Assembly: GCA_021792315.1 (NCBI GenBank)
Contig: JAJYUX010000032.1
Location: 1-16,326, forward strand
Reading direction: 5' to 3'
DNA length: 16,326 bases
Source: an archaeon
Lineage (GTDB): Archaea > Thermoproteota > Nitrososphaeria > Nitrososphaerales > CADDZS01
Positions 6,038-13,726 of the stretch are shown here, piece by piece (within the stretch, counting starts at the first letter, position 1; each line of letters begins with the position of its first letter). Below the pieces are notes generated by a model, which made no database searches, had not been told where the DNA came from, and saw nothing but the letters and a program-made list of their open reading frames with translations. A program made the translations under genes and the position numbers.

Positions 6038-7576
6038 TCAAGAATCGAGTCTTCGAACTGTCGAGTAATTCTTCAGCTGAATGAACTTCTTGCCTTCGTG
6101 AGTCTGGACTTCCACGCAACCTAGTAAGATTAGGTCTCCAGCGTGGTAGTTATCCAGAACCTTTGAGAGACTTCTCCAGCCGTATACCCTTATCTCCCCA
6201 GTGTGATCTCCAACGGTCAGTTCCGTTCGCTTCACAAGTCCTTCTTTCGTCTGAATTTCTCTAGCGATAGAGTCGTTCAGACACATTACCTCTAATGAAA
6301 TAATGCCGTCTTGAGGAACATCTTCGACGCACAATTTCAACGAGTCAGAAGTTGGAATATCTGATCTCTTTGACTGAAGTTTGGTAAGGTTCTTTTCCTT
6401 GGTAACGGAAACTTTCGATCCTTCCTTGTCAGATGTTTCGGGTCTGCAAAGGATGATATTGTCTTGATCGAAAGATTCCATACTCTTCAAAGCCGCACCA
6501 ACAGCAGTAATGGAAATCTTTCTCTTTTGCGAATCCATTACCAAGAGAAATGATTTCTCTTCCGAACCAACTCTTCGGAAAGAAAGTACTCTTCCAATGA
6601 ATGGAATCGGCGCATTCTTGACGATTTCCGCAGTCGACAGATATTCTGGATCGACGACTGCTCCGTAGCTCTTCGCTAATTCTTTCATCCAGGACTTGGT
6701 CACACCCCATCTTTCCAGAATGCAAGTAGTTTCATCTCCGTGAATTTCAACTGACACGGAATTCTGGAAATTCGAAATCTTAGTTCGCACATTTAGCAAA
6801 GTGATCGAATCCGAATCTTTCAAAAACTCAAAAGCAGGGTTTTGGTTTCCCCAAACCACTACTCTGTGCTCTGTGTTTTTGTCATCCCCGTCACTAATGG
6901 CAAAGCTGGTCAATCCAGACGATGAACCATCGCTCTTTGAAAATACACTCTTCTTTACCTCTCCACACACCCTGCCATGGAGAATAAGATACTTTTCGTT
7001 TTCTGGAACTCGTCGCAGGCCAAGTCGTCTCTCCGTCAGACTTCTTATCTGCTTGTCTTTGCTTTCGGAAATTCTTTCAATAAGTGAGTTTTCCCCAGTG
7101 TTTAGGGCAATTGTACCATCAATGGCCGTTCTAACATAAACGTTTGATATCTTCACCACGTCTCCGGGTCCGATCTCGGACTCCAGAAAGGCGGAGACGG
7201 AACGATCCCAAATGTTCAGCGTAGTTGAACCAGTGGTGTCGTAGATAACAAGACGCATCAATAGTCCCCTGCTAGCATCGGTCTTTCTTGTGAATGTTTT
7301 CGGATACCCGACTGATAGGACCCTACAAGTGAGGGTCACGGATTTGTGATCCTTAGAGAGCGCAGCAATATTCAACTCGTTTGTCTGATTGTACTCGATC
7401 ATTACGCCAAGATCAACAGCCACTAGAAACAACGCACCTTGATCTGTGAGATATCCGTCTCCTACGGTGTCCTTCTTCTTCTTGATGAGCTCTTTGAGAT
7501 TCTCTCTTGTCAAGCTACACTTCGACGCCAACTCCAGTAGTAGAATATCGAATTGATTCTCTTCGACTATGGTCAC
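6038..7576 (-). CDS. rpa: Replication protein A-like ssDNA-binding protein with about four OB folds
   Basis: This 512-residue protein is predicted to coat single-stranded DNA in replication and repair. Residues about 8-58 form the small helical N-terminal domain seen in archaeal RPA (ELxxKCxLTRENLKELI..., GYLTDQGALFLVA). OB-like repeats follow at about 75-170, 195-300, 315-390 and 420-510. The first and last have the clearest OB features: RVLSVGYPKTFTRK, and a final segment with GEIRVYGW and KKFIQLKN. No zinc ribbon is visible; only isolated cysteines occur, unlike euryarchaeal RPAs with a CxxC finger. The start is GTG, supported by the A/T box about 24 nt upstream and the lack of a Shine-Dalgarno, so a leaderless mRNA is likely. 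It is convergent with lhr and divergent from the HTH/ATP-cone gene. Confidence 0.85.
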   Translation of the reverse strand: MTIVEENQFDILLLELASKCSLTRENLKELIKKKKDTVGDGYLTDQGALFLVAVDLGVMIEYNQTNELNIAALSKDHKSVTLTCRVLSVGYPKTFTRKTDASRGLLMRLVIYDTTGSTTLNIWDRSVSAFLESEIGPGDVVKISNVYVRTAIDGTIALNTGENSLIERISESKDKQIRSLTERRLGLRRVPENEKYLILHGRVCGEVKKSVFSKSDGSSSGLTSFAISDGDDKNTEHRVVVWGNQNPAFEFLKDSDSITLLNVRTKISNFQNSVSVEIHGDETTCILERWGVTKSWMKELAKSYGAVVDPEYLSTAEIVKNAPIPFIGRVLSFRRVGSEEKSFLLVMDSQKRKISITAVGAALKSMESFDQDNIILCRPETSDKEGSKVSVTKEKNLTKLQSKRSDIPTSDSLKLCVEDVPQDGIISLEVMCLNDSIAREIQTKEGLVKRTELTVGDHTGEIRVYGWRSLSKVLDNYHAGDLILLGCVEVQTHEGKKFIQLKNYSTVRRLDS

Positions 7577-7643: not shown

Positions 7644-7871
7644 TCAAATTGATTCTTTTGACCCTTGAAAAAGGTCGTTTGGCTGACAGTTTCTAAAATT
7701 CTTTTGGACAGATTCCTGATCGGAACTTGATAGTACAGAGAACCCCGTTTCATTAGATCGTCTAGAAATATTGGCATATTGATTTACCCCAGATCTAGAA
7801 TTATCAATCTTTTTTAACCAATACATGAAGTCTTGAGGCATTTGAATCACTTTTTCTTCACCCTGTTTCAT
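7644..7871 (-). CDS. Possible small hydrophilic protein (75 codons), unrecognised
   Basis: This ATG-started ORF lies in the divergent gap between rpa and the HTH/ATP-cone gene. The protein is polar, rich in S, N, Q and K, with one cysteine and a MPQDFMYWLKKID segment near the N-terminus that could form an amphipathic helix. There is no signal peptide, membrane segment or known motif. Base composition is more A/T-rich than the surrounding genes, and no convincing A/T box or Shine-Dalgarno precedes it. It may be a real lineage-specific gene or simply an open frame in regulatory DNA. Apart from this ORF and the rpa TATA box, I see nothing assignable in 7577-7946. Confidence 0.33.
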   Translation of the reverse strand: MKQGEEKVIQMPQDFMYWLKKIDNSRSGVNQYANISRRSNETGFSVLSSSDQESVQKNFRNCQPNDLFQGSKESI

Positions 7872-7946
7872 GAGGCCTATCTTGCCATTTGTTGCAAAAG
7901 ATCGCTTTCTGCTTGTACTCTTGGCTTAGTGGAGAACCAGATCTGA

Positions 7947-10022
7947 TTGAGCGCTCCCCGCCGGGTCAGAACAATTTACTCTGTAATTGCATCGCCAAAT
8001 AGGCTCGACATACTTCGAATTCTAAACACCAAGGGACCACTGAGTTACTCCGAGCTAAAGACACTAGCTGGGTTCAAGTCGAAAAAAGAATCCGGTAAGT
8101 TCGCTTACCACTTGAGAAAATTGGTGAAGCAGACTCTGATTTCGTTAAACAGAGCGGAGCGGAAATACACAGTAACAAGCCTGGGGAGACTTGTACTGAA
8201 TCTAACCAAGCAGATCGAGGAGCAATCTATGCTCGAATCTGGAAAGCTCTACGTACGTAGCTCCAGACAGGCGCTGGAGGAGTTTAATGCCGACAAGATA
8301 CTTCAGTCTCTTGTGAAGGAAGCAGGGATGCCAGTCGAGCTCGCGCAGAAGATTGCAAGTGAGACCGAGGCGCGAGTTTACAAATTCCAGACCGCTTACC
8401 TTACTGCCCCCCTGATCCGAGAAATAGTGAACAGCATTCTCGTTGAACATGGATATGAGGAATACAGGCACAAGCTTACCCGCCTAGGACTTCCCGTCGC
8501 AGATGTTGCTGACCTGATACTCAGGGCAGGTGATGGCTCAGATTCCATAGATACTGTACTGTCTACGACTTCAGGAAGAGTCTTTTCTGAATATGCAATT
8601 CTTACCCAAATTCCGAGAGACGTTTCTGACGCCCACCTTTCTGGTGACCTGCACATATCAAGTCTTGGTAGCTGGAGTCTAATGCCCGACACCCTCTATC
8701 TTGATCTGAACGCTCTGTATTCAAATCCATACAATCTTGGAAGCAAGATCAGCAACGCCCCGAGGCTGGGAGCGATAAAGAATTTTGATTCTGCGCTGGA
8801 AACTGTCGAGATACTTGCGAGCATTGTTTCGCGGGAAGTTTCAAACGAAGTGTGCCTTGACAACTTGATTTCTTACCTCTCCAAGCTGTACTCTCCTCGT
8901 TCGCAGGAGGAGCAGGTAAGGATGTTCTCGCGAATGCTCTCTTCTCTTTCAACGGCCGCGGGGATGGGAAGAGCTCGCAGCATCACATTCAGGATCGGAG
9001 AACCGCAAAAGGACGAGGACGTTCCCTCCCAACTCGAGCTCAGAGATTCCTTACTTCAAGCATATTCTAGGTACGTGGAAATAGTGCCGATGCCTTCGAT
9101 TCATTTAGTGGTCTCTCCGGGAAGGTACTTTGATCGAAGAGTCGTGGAAGGTATCACTAACATTATCTCAAAGGGTGGAGACATCGCAGTCGAATCTGAT
9201 GGCAAGCACTCGTTCTCTGGGTTGAATCTTGATTTGCATGGTTCAAACTCAGGCTCAATTGATGGCATCCTGTTTCTTCAGAACCTGACTCTTAACCTTC
9301 CAAGGCTCGCATATGAGTCAAATAAGGATGAAACATACTTCAGGGCAAAGCTGGCTCTCTTGCTCCAGACTGCTGTCAACGCAATGGTGAATAGAAAGGA
9401 TCATGTGATAGACAGCATGAAGAAGGGTCTCCTTCCAGCACTCTATCAGATTCCGGTAGTCTCCTCACTCGAGGAGATGCCATTCGTGATCAACATGGTG
9501 GGACTGAATGAGGCAATATCGAGTTTGATGTCTGAAAGGGACCCAATGAGTAGACAGGAACTGGCTATGAAGATTCTAGACACAGCAAGCAAAGTCGCCA
9601 CCGAAAAGACGTCAAAACTGGGATGTAAGGCTCTCGTTTCGATGCTCCACGCTGAAGGATTCGAACGTCTATCTGAAATCGACGGCGAGAAATTCGGCAG
9701 GTCACAGGAAACACGCCTCAGTGGCTATCAAGAAGGCATCCTCGGATTGGAGCATTATGACGACGAGAAAACGGTATCCGACATTTCAGAGATGTTCAAT
9801 GCAACGAGCGGCGGAGCAATTGTTATGTTGAAATTCGCGAAAGAGACTGGTGATAATTTGAATTTTGGAAATATCGTTGTTGGTGTTTCAGGCAAAGTTC
9901 CATTTGTTAGGTTTTCAAGAAGTCTGGATGTCTGTAAGAAATGTGGAACGAAAGTGTTCGGCGGGGCGAGATGTCCAGCTTGCAAATCCACTTCGTTGAT
10001 TCTACAACCGTTATTGCTCTGA
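7947..10022 (+). CDS. Winged-helix / ATP-cone / degenerate NrdD fusion; candidate nucleotide-sensing transcription regulator
   Basis: Domains in 691 residues: an ArsR-like winged helix at about 8-95 (SPNRLDILRIL, ESGKFAYHLRKL); an ATP-cone at about 101-192, the module that binds ATP or dATP in reductases and in NrdR; then a class III reductase-like body at about 205-691. NrdD landmarks are AHLSGDLHI (229-236), LTLNLPRLAYE (447-457), VINMVGLNEA (514-523), TSGGAI (620-625) and the zinc site C663/C666/C676/C679. The C-terminal RxxGYL glycyl-radical motif is missing: the protein stops 12 residues after the last zinc cysteine. No cysteine lies just before the NLPR segment, where the thiyl-radical cysteine of NrdD sits. 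The only non-zinc cysteines are C303 and C560. No NrdG activase gene is in the window. It therefore looks catalytically dead. TTG is the only start after the in-frame TGA at 7944. Automatic pipelines may call it an anaerobic ribonucleotide reductase. Confidence 0.85.
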   Translation: MSAPRRVRTIYSVIASPNRLDILRILNTKGPLSYSELKTLAGFKSKKESGKFAYHLRKLVKQTLISLNRAERKYTVTSLGRLVLNLTKQIEEQSMLESGKLYVRSSRQALEEFNADKILQSLVKEAGMPVELAQKIASETEARVYKFQTAYLTAPLIREIVNSILVEHGYEEYRHKLTRLGLPVADVADLILRAGDGSDSIDTVLSTTSGRVFSEYAILTQIPRDVSDAHLSGDLHISSLGSWSLMPDTLYLDLNALYSNPYNLGSKISNAPRLGAIKNFDSALETVEILASIVSREVSNEVCLDNLISYLSKLYSPRSQEEQVRMFSRMLSSLSTAAGMGRARSITFRIGEPQKDEDVPSQLELRDSLLQAYSRYVEIVPMPSIHLVVSPGRYFDRRVVEGITNIISKGGDIAVESDGKHSFSGLNLDLHGSNSGSIDGILFLQNLTLNLPRLAYESNKDETYFRAKLALLLQTAVNAMVNRKDHVIDSMKKGLLPALYQIPVVSSLEEMPFVINMVGLNEAISSLMSERDPMSRQELAMKILDTASKVATEKTSKLGCKALVSMLHAEGFERLSEIDGEKFGRSQETRLSGYQEGILGLEHYDDEKTVSDISEMFNATSGGAIVMLKFAKETGDNLNFGNIVVGVSGKVPFVRFSRSLDVCKKCGTKVFGGARCPACKSTSLILQPLLL

Positions 10023-10069
10023 AACTTCGAAATTCGTTTCTGTGAAATACGTCAGAAAAAAATTCCGCG

Positions 10070-10090
10070 AAATAATTTATGTTGACAATT
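10070..10090 (+). repeat. Direct repeat copy 1: A/T box plus GTTGACAATT
   Basis: AAATAATTTAT is followed directly by GTTGACAATT, 48 nt after the stop of the HTH/ATP-cone gene. It matches copy 2 (10202-10221) at all but two positions plus a 1-nt length difference. The A/T part resembles an archaeal TATA box, so this may be a promoter (P1, start near 10100) or an operator. Confidence 0.55.
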
Positions 10091-10145
10091 CTTTCGCAAG
10101 TTGGAGAACAGCTAATTAATACAGATGTGAAGAATAGTTAACGTC

Positions 10146-10167
10146 TTTTTTTGCATCTGATATTTTT
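10146..10167 (+). terminator. Candidate U-tract terminator
   Basis: A run of seven T (10146-10152) is followed 10 nt later by a run of five T (10163-10167), both on the coding strand after the HTH/ATP-cone gene. Archaeal RNA polymerase terminates at such oligo-T tracts without needing a hairpin. The position, between the two repeat copies, would separate the regulator transcript (or a short RNA from copy 1) from the nrdJ transcript. Confidence 0.45.
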
Positions 10168-10199
10168 CTCTTGAAATTCATTTGCCGATTTGCTTAATG

Positions 10200-10208
10200 T
10201 TAAATAAT
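10200..10208 (+). promoter_or_regulatory. TATA box of the proposed nrdJ-operon promoter P2
   Basis: TTAAATAAT is centred about 22 nt before the ATG at 10226 and lies downstream of the T-rich tract. It is the best archaeal TATA match in this gap and is part of direct repeat copy 2. Confidence 0.5.
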
Positions 10209-10221
10209 CTAGTTGACAGTT
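10202..10221 (+). repeat. Direct repeat copy 2: A/T box plus GTTGACAGTT
   Basis: AAATAATCTA is followed by GTTGACAGTT, 132 nt downstream of copy 1. The GTTGACARTT half lies between the TATA box and the expected transcription start near 10226-10230, a position where a bound repressor would block initiation. A weaker relative, GCTGACAGTT, occurs at 7682-7691 in the gap before the HTH/ATP-cone gene. Confidence 0.55.
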
Positions 10222-10225
10222 ACAA

Positions 10226-10285
10226 ATGGCCCGATATGTTACTAAGGAGATTGATTTGTGCGACATCAGCCTCGAGGGAGAATGA
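10226..10285 (+). CDS. Possible 19-residue leader peptide
   Basis: The frame starts with ATG (MARYVTKEIDLC...) about 22 nt downstream of the P2 TATA box, the spacing of a leaderless transcript. Its TGA stop (10283-10285) overlaps the ATG of the next small ORF in the sequence ATGA. It may be a leader peptide, a tiny protein, or the 5' half of one small gene split by a frameshift. No family was recognised. Confidence 0.3.
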   Translation: MARYVTKEIDLCDISLEGE

Positions 10286-10475: not shown

Positions 10476-12788
10476 ATGGAAACAAATTCGTTAGATGATA
10501 GAGTTGCTGAAGAGTCGGAGAATGCTTCAGAATATGCAGGAGAGCTAGAGCAAATTGCGACGCCGATTCAACTTCCCAAGGAGACTTTGGAGTTTTTCAA
10601 CGCGGACGAGCTCAGAGCGAGAGTATTCTACGAGAAATACGCTCTGAAGGATCTGAATGGGCTGGTAGTCGAGCAAACACCTGTCGACATGTGGGCTAGA
10701 GTGGCGAGAGAATTAGCATCTGTGGAAACCACAGAAGAAAAGAGATCAGAATGGACAAAGAAGTTCTACTGGTTGCTGGAGAACTTTAGATTCGTTCCAG
10801 GGGGAAGAATAATGTTTGGTGCTGGTCAACCGAGACGCTCAACCCTGTTGAACTGCTACTATCTTCCAATCAAATCTGATTCTCTAGAGGACATTTTCGA
10901 CTTTTGTAAAGAAGCTGGCAGAACCTACTCATATGGTGGTGGAGTGGGCACCGATATTTCAATTCTGAGACCCAAGGGTGCACCGGTGAACAACTCTGCT
11001 GTTGTTTCCACTGGTTCCGTCTCCTTCATGGAACTCTTCTCCGTTACCACAGGAACCATTGGTCAGGCGGGCAGGAGGGGAGCACTGATGATTACAATAC
11101 ATGTGGATCATCCTGACGTTGTGGATTTCATCGATGTGAAGCGCGACTTGAGTCACGTCAACCATGCAAACATCAGCGTATGCATAACTGACAAGTTCAT
11201 GCAAGCCGTGGAGAAGGACGAAAACTTTACGCTGGAGTTCCACAACGACAAGGCGGACGTTAGACGGGTCGTCAAAGCTAAGGAATTATGGGATAAACTG
11301 GTTCGTTCCGCGTGGGCATCCGCCGAACCTGGGATAATCTTCTGGGACAACGTGAAGAATGAATCGCCAACAGAATACAACGGCATGGAGGTTCATGGGT
11401 TCAACCCTTGCTCGGAGCAGTGTCTCGAAGATTATGGTTGCTGCTGCTTGGGCAACATAAACCTCTCAGCCTTCGTCGTCGACGAGTTCTCTGAAAGAGC
11501 AAGATTGGACTGGAGAAATCTGGAGAAGGCGTTGCGCTATTCGACACGCTTTCTGGATAACGTGCTAGATTACAACGCAGACAAGCACCCGCTCCCAGAA
11601 CAGAAGAAAGCATCAATGTGGTCCAGAAGAATCGGCGTTGGTTTCACTGGATTTGCCGACATGTTGATCAAACTCAGCATGAAATACGATTCACCGCAAT
11701 CAGTCAAGTTCATCGACCGGATGTTTGACAGAGTGAAGAACATCTGTTACGACGAGAGTTGCAATATTGCAGTTGAAAAGGGACCGGCGCCTGCTTTCAT
11801 CGCTGAAAAACATCTTGCGCGACCTTTCATCCAGCGGCTAGACAACGGAGTAAAGCAGAAGATCGCATCCAGGGGCATCAGAAACTCTTGCGTTCTTACA
11901 GTTCCTCCTGTGGGTAGTGGAGCTATAATTGCTGGCACAACTTCGGGGATAGAACCAATCTTTGCTCTGAGCTATGTTCGCAAGTCAAAGTCATTAACCG
12001 GCGGGGAGTTTAAGGTCTATCATCCTCTTGTCCAAGAATACATGAAACGCTTCGGACTCAAGACTGAATCGGAGCTTCCCGACATTTTTGTCACTGCGCA
12101 CAACATAAAGGCTGAGTTTAGAGTGCAGATGCAAGGAACAATTCAGAAACACATTGACTCTAGCATCTCCAGTACAGTCAACATTCCCAAGGAAGCAAGC
12201 GTCCAAGACGTCAAGGATATTTACTTCCAAGCTTGGAGATCTGGATGCAAAGGAATCACCGTGTATAGGGAGGGCGTGAGAGAGGGAATCCTTCTGACCA
12301 ACGAAGAAGCGGCGTCTCAAAAGGGGGGAGTGAAAGCAAAGATGCAAAAGTTTGAGAGACCAAAAGTTCTGATCGGGCACACAGTCAAGATGAAGCTGCC
12401 GCAAGGTAGTCTCTATGTTACTGCTAACAAGAATGGAGACGACATCATCAGGGAAACATTCGTCACCTTGGGCAAATCTGGTGGAGATGAAAAAGCTGAC
12501 GCTGAAGCTCTTGGACGTCTCATCAGCCTTTACCTGCAACACGGCGGAAGGGTACAGGAAGTCATTCAGACTTTGAAGGGAATTCAGGGTAGAGATGTTT
12601 CTTGGGATAATGGACAGCAACTCCTATCCGTTCCCGACGCCGTCGCGAAGGCTCTTGCCAGTCTATCAGGCACGACAGTCGAAAAGGATCAGGAGCTCAA
12701 GCACTGTCCGGACTGCGGAGAGGCTGGACTGATATTCGAGAACGGATGCTACCGCTGCCAACAATGCGGCTACTCCAAGTGTAACTAA
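10476..12788 (+). CDS. nrdJ: Ribonucleotide reductase class II, adenosylcobalamin-dependent
   Basis: This enzyme reduces ribonucleotides to deoxyribonucleotides using a B12-generated thiyl radical, with no need for oxygen or an activase. Numbered from this ATG (770 residues): redox cysteine C127 in LNCYYLP; finger loop NPCSE with N310, C312 (thiyl site) and E314; second redox cysteine within GCCCLGNINLS (C322-C324, canonical position C323); SGIEPIFAL; GCKGITVYREG; a TSCPD-type domain (GHTVKMKLPQGSLYVTAN onward); and a C-terminal zinc ribbon CPDCG...CYRCQQCGYSKC that also supplies the reductant cysteines. There is no N-terminal ATP-cone. The ATG is supported by an A/T box 24 nt upstream; a TTG at 10422 would add 18 basic residues and couples to the preceding small ORF. 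Its TAA overlaps the TAG of convergent pyrB. Confidence 0.95.
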   Translation: METNSLDDRVAEESENASEYAGELEQIATPIQLPKETLEFFNADELRARVFYEKYALKDLNGLVVEQTPVDMWARVARELASVETTEEKRSEWTKKFYWLLENFRFVPGGRIMFGAGQPRRSTLLNCYYLPIKSDSLEDIFDFCKEAGRTYSYGGGVGTDISILRPKGAPVNNSAVVSTGSVSFMELFSVTTGTIGQAGRRGALMITIHVDHPDVVDFIDVKRDLSHVNHANISVCITDKFMQAVEKDENFTLEFHNDKADVRRVVKAKELWDKLVRSAWASAEPGIIFWDNVKNESPTEYNGMEVHGFNPCSEQCLEDYGCCCLGNINLSAFVVDEFSERARLDWRNLEKALRYSTRFLDNVLDYNADKHPLPEQKKASMWSRRIGVGFTGFADMLIKLSMKYDSPQSVKFIDRMFDRVKNICYDESCNIAVEKGPAPAFIAEKHLARPFIQRLDNGVKQKIASRGIRNSCVLTVPPVGSGAIIAGTTSGIEPIFALSYVRKSKSLTGGEFKVYHPLVQEYMKRFGLKTESELPDIFVTAHNIKAEFRVQMQGTIQKHIDSSISSTVNIPKEASVQDVKDIYFQAWRSGCKGITVYREGVREGILLTNEEAASQKGGVKAKMQKFERPKVLIGHTVKMKLPQGSLYVTANKNGDDIIRETFVTLGKSGGDEKADAEALGRLISLYLQHGGRVQEVIQTLKGIQGRDVSWDNGQQLLSVPDAVAKALASLSGTTVEKDQELKHCPDCGEAGLIFENGCYRCQQCGYSKCN

Positions 12789-13726
12789 GAATTCAGTATC
12801 AAAGAGAGCAGTGCTGCTCTCACAATTCTTCCGTACTGCATCTGCCTGAAGTACCTAGCCTGTGGGGTTGAATCCACATCAGGCTTTATTTCGTCGATGC
12901 GTGGTAGAGGGTGCATGATTATCGCGTCACTCTTCATTAACTTCACGTGCTCTGCCCCGATGAAGTATGATCCTCTCACTTTTTCGTACTCTTGGTCGTC
13001 CGGAAACCTTTCTCTCTGGATTCTTGTAACATAAAGAACGTCAAGATCCGTAAGAACTTCCTGAAGGTTATCGTGTTCCGTTATTTCAATCGAAGTGGAC
13101 TTGCCAGGTATCTTCCCAATGTCGTGCGTTGCCTCCTTCCTAATCTTGAGGCCGTCAGGAGCGATGAGTTCTATCTTCACGTCGTATTTTGCCAATCCAT
13201 ATATCAGTGAGTAGACGGTTCTTCCATATCTCAAATCGCCTACTATTCCAATCCGAAGTCCATCGATCCTCTTCTTCTCTTTCAGAATGGTATAGAGGTC
13301 AAGCATTCCCTGCGATGGGTGTTCTTCTGTTCCTGTCCCTGCGCTCACGACTGGTTTCACTGCAATCTCCGCTGCAAATCTGGCAGCGCCCTCGTTGGAG
13401 TGTCTTAATGCCAGAACGTCGCAATTCGCCTCAACGACTCGCACTGTATCTGCAAGAGACTCTCCTTTTTCCATGGAGGTTGTGCTCACCTCACTGAATC
13501 CGATCGATGTGCCCCCGATTGACGCCATGGCAGATTCGAAACTCAATCTTGTTCTGGTGCTTGGTTCGTGAAACATTATTCCTAGTATACGACCTTCTCC
13601 GAGGGCTACCTTGTCCCTATATTTCATTTCGACAAGTTTGTCGGCAGTGGAAAACAAAAGATCTAAGTCATCACGATTGAAATCCTTCATTGAAAGAACG
13701 TCGCGCTTGAAGAAGGGATTTGGCAC
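12785..13726 (-). CDS. pyrB: Aspartate carbamoyltransferase catalytic chain
   Basis: This enzyme condenses carbamoyl phosphate with L-aspartate in the committed step of pyrimidine synthesis. It has 313 residues, the usual length. Carbamoyl-phosphate loop STRTR is at 56-60, the 80s loop STTSMEKGES at 81-90, EHPSQ at 135-139 (canonical QHPTQ with the catalytic H and Q kept), GDLRYGRTVYSL in the aspartate domain and HPLPR near 275. The start is GTG, giving NPFFKRDVLSMKD, the family's standard N-terminus. A regulatory chain gene (pyrI), often adjacent in archaea, is absent here: downstream of pyrB lies convergent nrdJ, whose stop overlaps. It lies 70 nt downstream of tfe and may be read through from that cluster or from its own weak promoter. 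Confidence 0.95.
   Translation of the reverse strand: MPNPFFKRDVLSMKDFNRDDLDLLFSTADKLVEMKYRDKVALGEGRILGIMFHEPSTRTRLSFESAMASIGGTSIGFSEVSTTSMEKGESLADTVRVVEANCDVLALRHSNEGAARFAAEIAVKPVVSAGTGTEEHPSQGMLDLYTILKEKKRIDGLRIGIVGDLRYGRTVYSLIYGLAKYDVKIELIAPDGLKIRKEATHDIGKIPGKSTSIEITEHDNLQEVLTDLDVLYVTRIQRERFPDDQEYEKVRGSYFIGAEHVKLMKSDAIIMHPLPRIDEIKPDVDSTPQARYFRQMQYGRIVRAALLSLILNS

Follow-up and report, generated by a model that had tools for sequence, protein, structure and literature searches.

Ribonucleotide reductase produces DNA building blocks, and we know of no answer to the question of how archaea adjust its expression to nucleotide supply. One of the closest described systems is bacterial NrdR (TIGR00244), which combines an ATP-cone with a DNA-binding domain, the latter being an N-terminal zinc ribbon. 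Passages in two papers describe NrdR as rare in archaea (PMC12176259, PMC9110341), and one of these presents it as a repressor (PMC9110341). Two further families have a bearing on the locus considered here, i.e., the class III reductase NrdD (TIGR02487 / PF13597) and the winged-helix regulators of the ArsR kind (HTH_20, DUF7347).

The window (i.e., the entire 16.3 kb stretch of DNA that was analyzed) carries one gene whose product has something in common with each of these families. Its parts are as follows:

7947..10022, plus strand: putative regulator gene, 691 aa, TTG start, encoding a winged helix, an ATP-cone, an apparently dead NrdD body, and a zinc knuckle
7965..8198, plus strand: winged-helix domain (residues 7-84)
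8070..8126, plus strand: recognition-helix region GFKSKKESGKFAYHLRKLV (residues 42-60), with a presumed role in reading DNA
8247..8492, plus strand: ATP-cone (residues 101-182)
8535..9926, plus strand: NrdD-fold body without the active-site cysteines (residues 197-660)
9933..9983, plus strand: C-terminal zinc knuckle formed by C663/C666/C676/C679, lacking the radical-glycine segment that comes next in NrdD

Domain matches confirmed the initial annotation, which had placed a winged helix, an ATP-cone, the NrdD fold, and a terminal zinc site in a single frame. HTH_20 scored 33.6 bits (cut-off, 27), DUF7347, a second winged-helix family, was also above its cut-off, and the Pfam ATP-cone reached 34.1 bits (cut-off, 25.8), while the NrdD barrel fold is present over residues of about 190-691. 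The NrdD equivalog model (TIGR02487) gave 85.3 bits, below its cut-off of 326.35, NF033788 HTH_metalloreg gave 24.3 vs a cut-off of 55, and TIGR00244 (NrdR) was not among the model matches of the window protein. The source names of matched proteins conflict, with reductase (formate), ArsR family regulator, helix-turn-helix protein, and hypothetical protein all in use.

Like NrdR, the protein joins an ATP-cone to a DNA-binding domain, and the two likely share reductase genes as targets, autoregulation, and a short inverted-repeat operator; unlike NrdR, it has a winged helix rather than an N-terminal zinc ribbon and about 500 additional residues of apparently dead NrdD. With NrdD it has in common the fold, the N-terminal ATP-cone, and the C-terminal zinc cysteines, whereas the active-site cysteines and the glycyl-radical segment of NrdD are both absent and a winged helix has been fused on. 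The winged helix is also a feature of ArsR-kind regulators, but here an ATP-cone and a reductase body follow it in the same chain. On the best reading of this comparison, the protein would be NrdR-like in its working, but it is not a member of NrdR. NrdR itself (TIGR00244) was above cut-off in 0/250 genomes of the class sample (controls, 9/14 positive), with weak partial matches in 11/250, and the window has no match to the NrdR-box consensus even when as many as three mismatches are allowed, real boxes being variable. No protein of this architecture was recognized in searches of a library of open-license papers, whose scope makes such an absence weak evidence.

Gene neighborhood and a candidate operator

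The initial annotation had also suggested surveying genomes for this domain order and its neighbors. In such a survey, the window protein was matched in 232/250 genomes of the class sample, a few of them weakly, and nrdJ, which encodes a class II ribonucleotide reductase, lies downstream in 51/54 distinct loci. This sample comprises 250 genomes from the class of genome G004, presumably Nitrososphaeria, in which NCBI places the Nitrososphaerales, and homologs from outside the sample may likewise hint at other classes. Ammonia-oxidizing archaea belong to class Nitrososphaeria. Among the class matches listed, most span the full protein length; the weak ones in G017, G025, G031, G037, and G054 (E 1e-4 to 1e-6) may be canonical NrdD or fragments. 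A profile search of a 300-genome draw from the phylum, which includes class members, found 194/300 genomes at E 1e-20 or better, and weaker matches there may be canonical NrdD. The 20 loci fetched from this draw, none from the 250 class genomes, encode the same fusion or a shortened form. The shorter homologs of L144-L146 and L148 (599-620 aa) have a whole or partial winged helix, the cone, and a much diverged body.

The 54 distinct loci were obtained from 93 (92 fetched plus the window) by removing any locus whose residues 51-150 equaled those of one already kept, a filter that acts on highly conserved residues and also removed some distinct genomes; the canonical NrdD loci (L092-L096) are outside this set. 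In addition to the 51/54 loci in which nrdJ lies immediately 3' of the putative regulator on the same strand, it is convergent in 2/54 and was not seen in 1/54 (L097, a 12 kb locus; its genome, G016, yielded two NrdD genes and no NrdJ match). A separate RNR gene thereby adjoins the regulator in 53/54 loci, and the linked NrdJ proteins range from 87% down to 26% identity to that of the window. Some NrdJ forms are unusually built: L046 encodes a long one (1046 codons), and those of L005, L042, L050, L054, and L068 have in-frame, intein-like inserts in open frames of 1149-1570 codons.

Outside the class sample, the next gene is a reductase in only 2/20 loci (L129 and L140), in one case behind a small glutaredoxin-like gene, and is pyrB-like and on the opposite strand in 10/20; a reductase was above cut-off somewhere in 19/20 of these genomes (11 NrdD, 15 NrdJ). 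In genome G489 of the phylum sample (L140, 3516-8434), the apparently dead homolog is followed by the glutaredoxin-like gene and a canonical NrdD. Within the class, the linkage outlasts an exchange of reductase type, which points to a tie with the pathway rather than with a single protein partner; the 2/20 loci outside the class sample speak against this reading.

Other neighbors were noted as well. In the window, which contains 0 tRNA genes, pyrB (aspartate carbamoyltransferase; 12785-13726, minus strand) adjoins nrdJ, and pyrB adjoins the homolog (in L140, the NrdD) in 11/20 loci outside the class sample (L130-L132, L134, L135, and L137-L142), where the pyrB genes are 50-53% identical; the gene after pyrB often looks pyrI-like by eye. 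On the other side of the putative regulator, an OB-fold gene (6038-7576, minus strand), fast-evolving and perhaps RPA-like, is divergent from it in 8/8 loci of the window clade, the 7 relatives being 35-52% identical to the window's. These two genes have a common intergenic region, which contains one of the candidate operators among the following elements:

10476..12788, plus strand: nrdJ, class II ribonucleotide reductase, with no Pfam ATP-cone match; the ORF opens at a TTG (10422), and relatives point to the ATG at 10476 as the likely start
10127..10142, plus strand: candidate operator O2, GTGAAGAATAGTTAAC, a perfect GTNAA-N6-TTNAC upstream of nrdJ, kept in relatives
10192..10206, plus strand: AT-rich block GCTTAATGTTAAATA, conserved in the alignment, a possible nrdJ promoter element
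7803..7818, plus strand: candidate operator O1, ATCAATCTTTTTTAAC, which departs from GTNAA-N6-TTNAC at one position, upstream of the putative regulator
7841..7861, plus strand: second conserved element, TTTGAATC...TTCAC, a TGAA-N10-TTCA dyad seen in the alignment upstream of the putative regulator

An alignment of eight relatives, window included, revealed a conserved TGTNAA-N6-TTNAC-like block 5' of nrdJ, which recurs in a clade with about 49% protein identity, and the O1 position reads [AG]T[CG]AA-N6-TTAAC in 6/8 of the same set. Of the two regions that the initial annotation had named for DNA binding, 10040-10240 does hold the perfect repeat, whereas 7872-7946 is without it, the candidate on that side lying at 7803-7818. 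In the window, O2 is the only perfect match; at least one match also arises in 42/200 shuffles, and a match in the window alone would therefore mean little. Relaxing the pattern after the alignment had been seen added just one more window match, i.e., O1.

Comparison across loci is more telling. Counted over related, non-independent loci (the counts are not probabilities), the 16-bp repeat GTNAA-N6-TTNAC is present in 15/51 regulator-nrdJ gaps, against an expectation of 0.34 sites when the remainder of the loci, largely coding DNA, is taken as background, and in 11/54 regions upstream of the regulator. One position or the other has it in 21/54 loci, and 33/54 lack a perfect repeat; spacers of 4, 5, and 7-10 gave counts of 0 to 3. 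Against dinucleotide shuffles, with mismatches allowed, the 6-bp spacer was found in 16/51 gaps and 13/53 upstream regions vs 1.6 expected for each, and the 5-bp spacer was somewhat enriched before nrdJ (5/51 vs 1.2). Among loci outside the set that defined the pattern, the repeat occurred in 9/41 vs 0.29 sites expected (32/41 without a perfect repeat) and its 5-bp variant in 3/41 vs 0.43; omitting the 6 loci inspected before the pattern was fixed left 7/35 vs 0.27.

A stricter form, TGTSAA-N6-TTNACA, was searched in 20 whole genomes and gave 26 distinct sites, 11 of them at the regulator-nrdJ locus. Matches were found in 14/20 genomes and none in 6/20, and in the 7 genomes with a single site, that site was at the regulator-nrdJ locus in 7/7. 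Since the total of genome-wide rows (38) is near that of a reversed-pattern control (29), the repeat appears special by its position and not by its number. A wider regulon was considered and set aside: the 15/26 sites elsewhere may be chance occurrences, and the genes read at 20 loci had no common theme. A riboswitch in the nrdJ leader was likewise set aside, with no Rfam family above its gathering score in the window.

The repeat is not found throughout. In 30 loci with an NrdJ 31-35.6% identical to the window's, it occurs in only 5/30, and the recognition helix of the aligned members is the same. Two other operator candidates for this group were rejected as weak, namely TCAA-N5-TTGA (9/30 intergenic regions vs a control maximum of 6) and a block resembling GTCAYAAGTCTTATTTAC, possibly overlapping a promoter. 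Upstream of the 20 homologs outside the 250 class genomes, no GTNAA-N6-TTNAC was found in 7.2 kb; the helix differs there.

Collectively, a winged helix conserved family-wide, linkage to nrdJ, and a 16-bp repeat that favors a 6-bp spacer and occurs at both predicted promoters, in a class sample with NrdR above cut-off in 0/250 genomes, lend substance to the NrdR-like regulator of reductase genes that the initial annotation had proposed. From these comparisons, we consider it likely that the protein is a dedicated, autoregulated transcription factor of ribonucleotide reductase genes, which would fill in these archaea the role that NrdR has in bacteria. In the proposed mechanism, it would dimerize via the NrdD body so that each half-site receives one winged helix; the dimer geometry would change when a nucleotide occupies the cone, and possibly also the body, and plentiful deoxynucleotides would lead to repression of nrdJ and of the regulator's own gene. 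The repressive sign is the least certain step of this model, and activation is also possible because in the window about 50 bp separate the nrdJ-side repeat from the AT-rich, promoter-like block downstream of it.

In a variant that overlaps the preferred explanation, scarcity of deoxynucleotides would lead the protein to increase transcription of nrdJ, and the protein would limit its own gene. In keeping with this variant, the nrdJ-side repeat lies upstream of a conserved AT-rich block, whereas the regulator-side repeat of L040, L041, and L042 contains GTTAAATA and has its first base 17-35 bp ahead of the chosen start codon. Nevertheless, we think this variant rather unlikely, given that the promoter positions are predicted ones and that the functional analogue NrdR is a repressor in the passage cited (PMC9110341).

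Conservation of the winged helix and the ATP-cone

Mean column conservation over 75 sequences is 0.88 in the winged helix, 0.84 in the cone, and 0.51 in the body (over 206-660), and it rises to 0.98 in residues 40-60. Columns that are at least 95% conserved make up 60% of the winged helix, 41% of the cone, 8% of the body, and 90% of residues 40-60. Indeed, GFKSKKESGKFAYHLRKL is nearly constant across the 22 sampled class members, with L097 deviating at five positions; of the 20 homologs outside the class sample, most have a different helix, often NxxPxRDAGKFxYHLKxL-like. The conservation pattern looks like that of a protein retained for its DNA-binding head and its cone.

The initial annotation had the protein read the ATP/dATP ratio, a claim that is weakened by the cone sequence: the domain passes the Pfam cut-off, but the KRDG of aligned canonical NrdD cones is replaced by V-R-[TS]-S. 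Sensing of ATP/dATP by the putative regulator is for this reason an assumption of the model. The loss of KRDG does not exclude nucleotide binding, since E. coli NrdR itself carries VKSNDVREPF at the cone signature; its cone has V-[KR] and F-N-x-[DE]-K-[IL] in common with the cone described here. More tentatively, the whole dead reductase might serve as the sensor, with the cone, the specificity site, and the substrate pocket jointly reading several nucleotide pools. If this is true, the living reductase would have its gene governed by a molecular replica of its own allosteric apparatus.

The dead NrdD body could instead act mainly as an allosteric partner that binds NrdJ and exerts nucleotide control in trans, the winged helix then having another or a secondary role. 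This would suit the window, whose NrdJ has no ATP-cone match, and the way in which the two genes travel together. An N-terminal ATP-cone is, however, present in 34/51 of the same-strand NrdJ frames (17/51 have no cone match), and the best conserved part of the putative regulator is the winged helix and not the body. Furthermore, a homolog is also found before a class III enzyme, and in G016 a homolog is present although no NrdJ was matched. Weighing these points, we find a partner role improbable and retain transcriptional control of reductase genes as the preferred reading.

Catalytic residues, ancestry, and selection

In a joint alignment, 22/22 sampled class members lack each of the three catalytic sites at its position (the SPYC cysteine, CCR, and the RVxGY segment), L046 having one cysteine offset by one residue from the expected position. 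The initial annotation had read the window protein, which ends a few residues past the zinc knuckle, as a dead NrdD, and the loss extends to all of the relatives sampled. NrdD was above cut-off in 4/250 class genomes. The 4 canonical NrdDs aligned from class-sample genomes each keep all three catalytic sites, and radical-SAM-like genes, read by eye, adjoin at least three of the four (L092, L095, and L096). NrdG was above cut-off in 0/250 class genomes, but this cut-off was passed by only 3/14 controls and weak matches occur in 217/250; none was found among the 14 window ORFs scanned. As judged from these alignments, the protein is a pseudoenzyme of the NrdD family, catalytically dead.

These data are very hard to reconcile with a protein that still functions as an anaerobic reductase or radical enzyme despite its altered residues. 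The NrdD fold, the cone, and the zinc site are kept, the protein is often named a reductase in the sources, and single residues survive in a few homologs from beyond the class sample, i.e., a GCR in L140, an aligned glycine (RIYGRY) in L143, and a glycine close to the radical-glycine position in L129 and L147, with L137, L138, L139, and L142 having a cysteine close to the CCR position. Nonetheless, every sampled class member lacks both cysteine sites as well as the radical glycine, a full catalytic set was found in 0 of the aligned homologs, whether from the class or from outside the class sample, and a separate RNR gene is adjacent in 53/54 loci.

In a tree of 48 bodies, which contains three long-branch sequences, six canonical enzymes fall on one side of a branch supported at 89/82 and present in 90% of bootstrap trees, a topology that leaves room for a single origin of the dead form. 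From four pairs whose dS was unsaturated, whole-gene dN/dS came out at 0.03-0.07 (dS was saturated in the two pairs involving the window); by part, it is 0-0.036 in the winged helix, 0-0.010 in the cone, and 0.04-0.09 in the body. The gene is under strong purifying selection. A decaying, functionless pseudogene fusion, to which the lost catalytic residues might point, is already contradicted by these values, by the open frames, and by the matches in 232/250 genomes, and has next to no chance of being correct.

A candidate for archaeal reductase control

This regulator family is a concrete candidate for the control of ribonucleotide reductase in archaea, with a predicted target gene and a predicted DNA site. 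If the proposed role is true, database entries that name the protein an anaerobic reductase would be corrected, and the family would clearly exemplify the conversion of an essential enzyme to the regulator of a relative.
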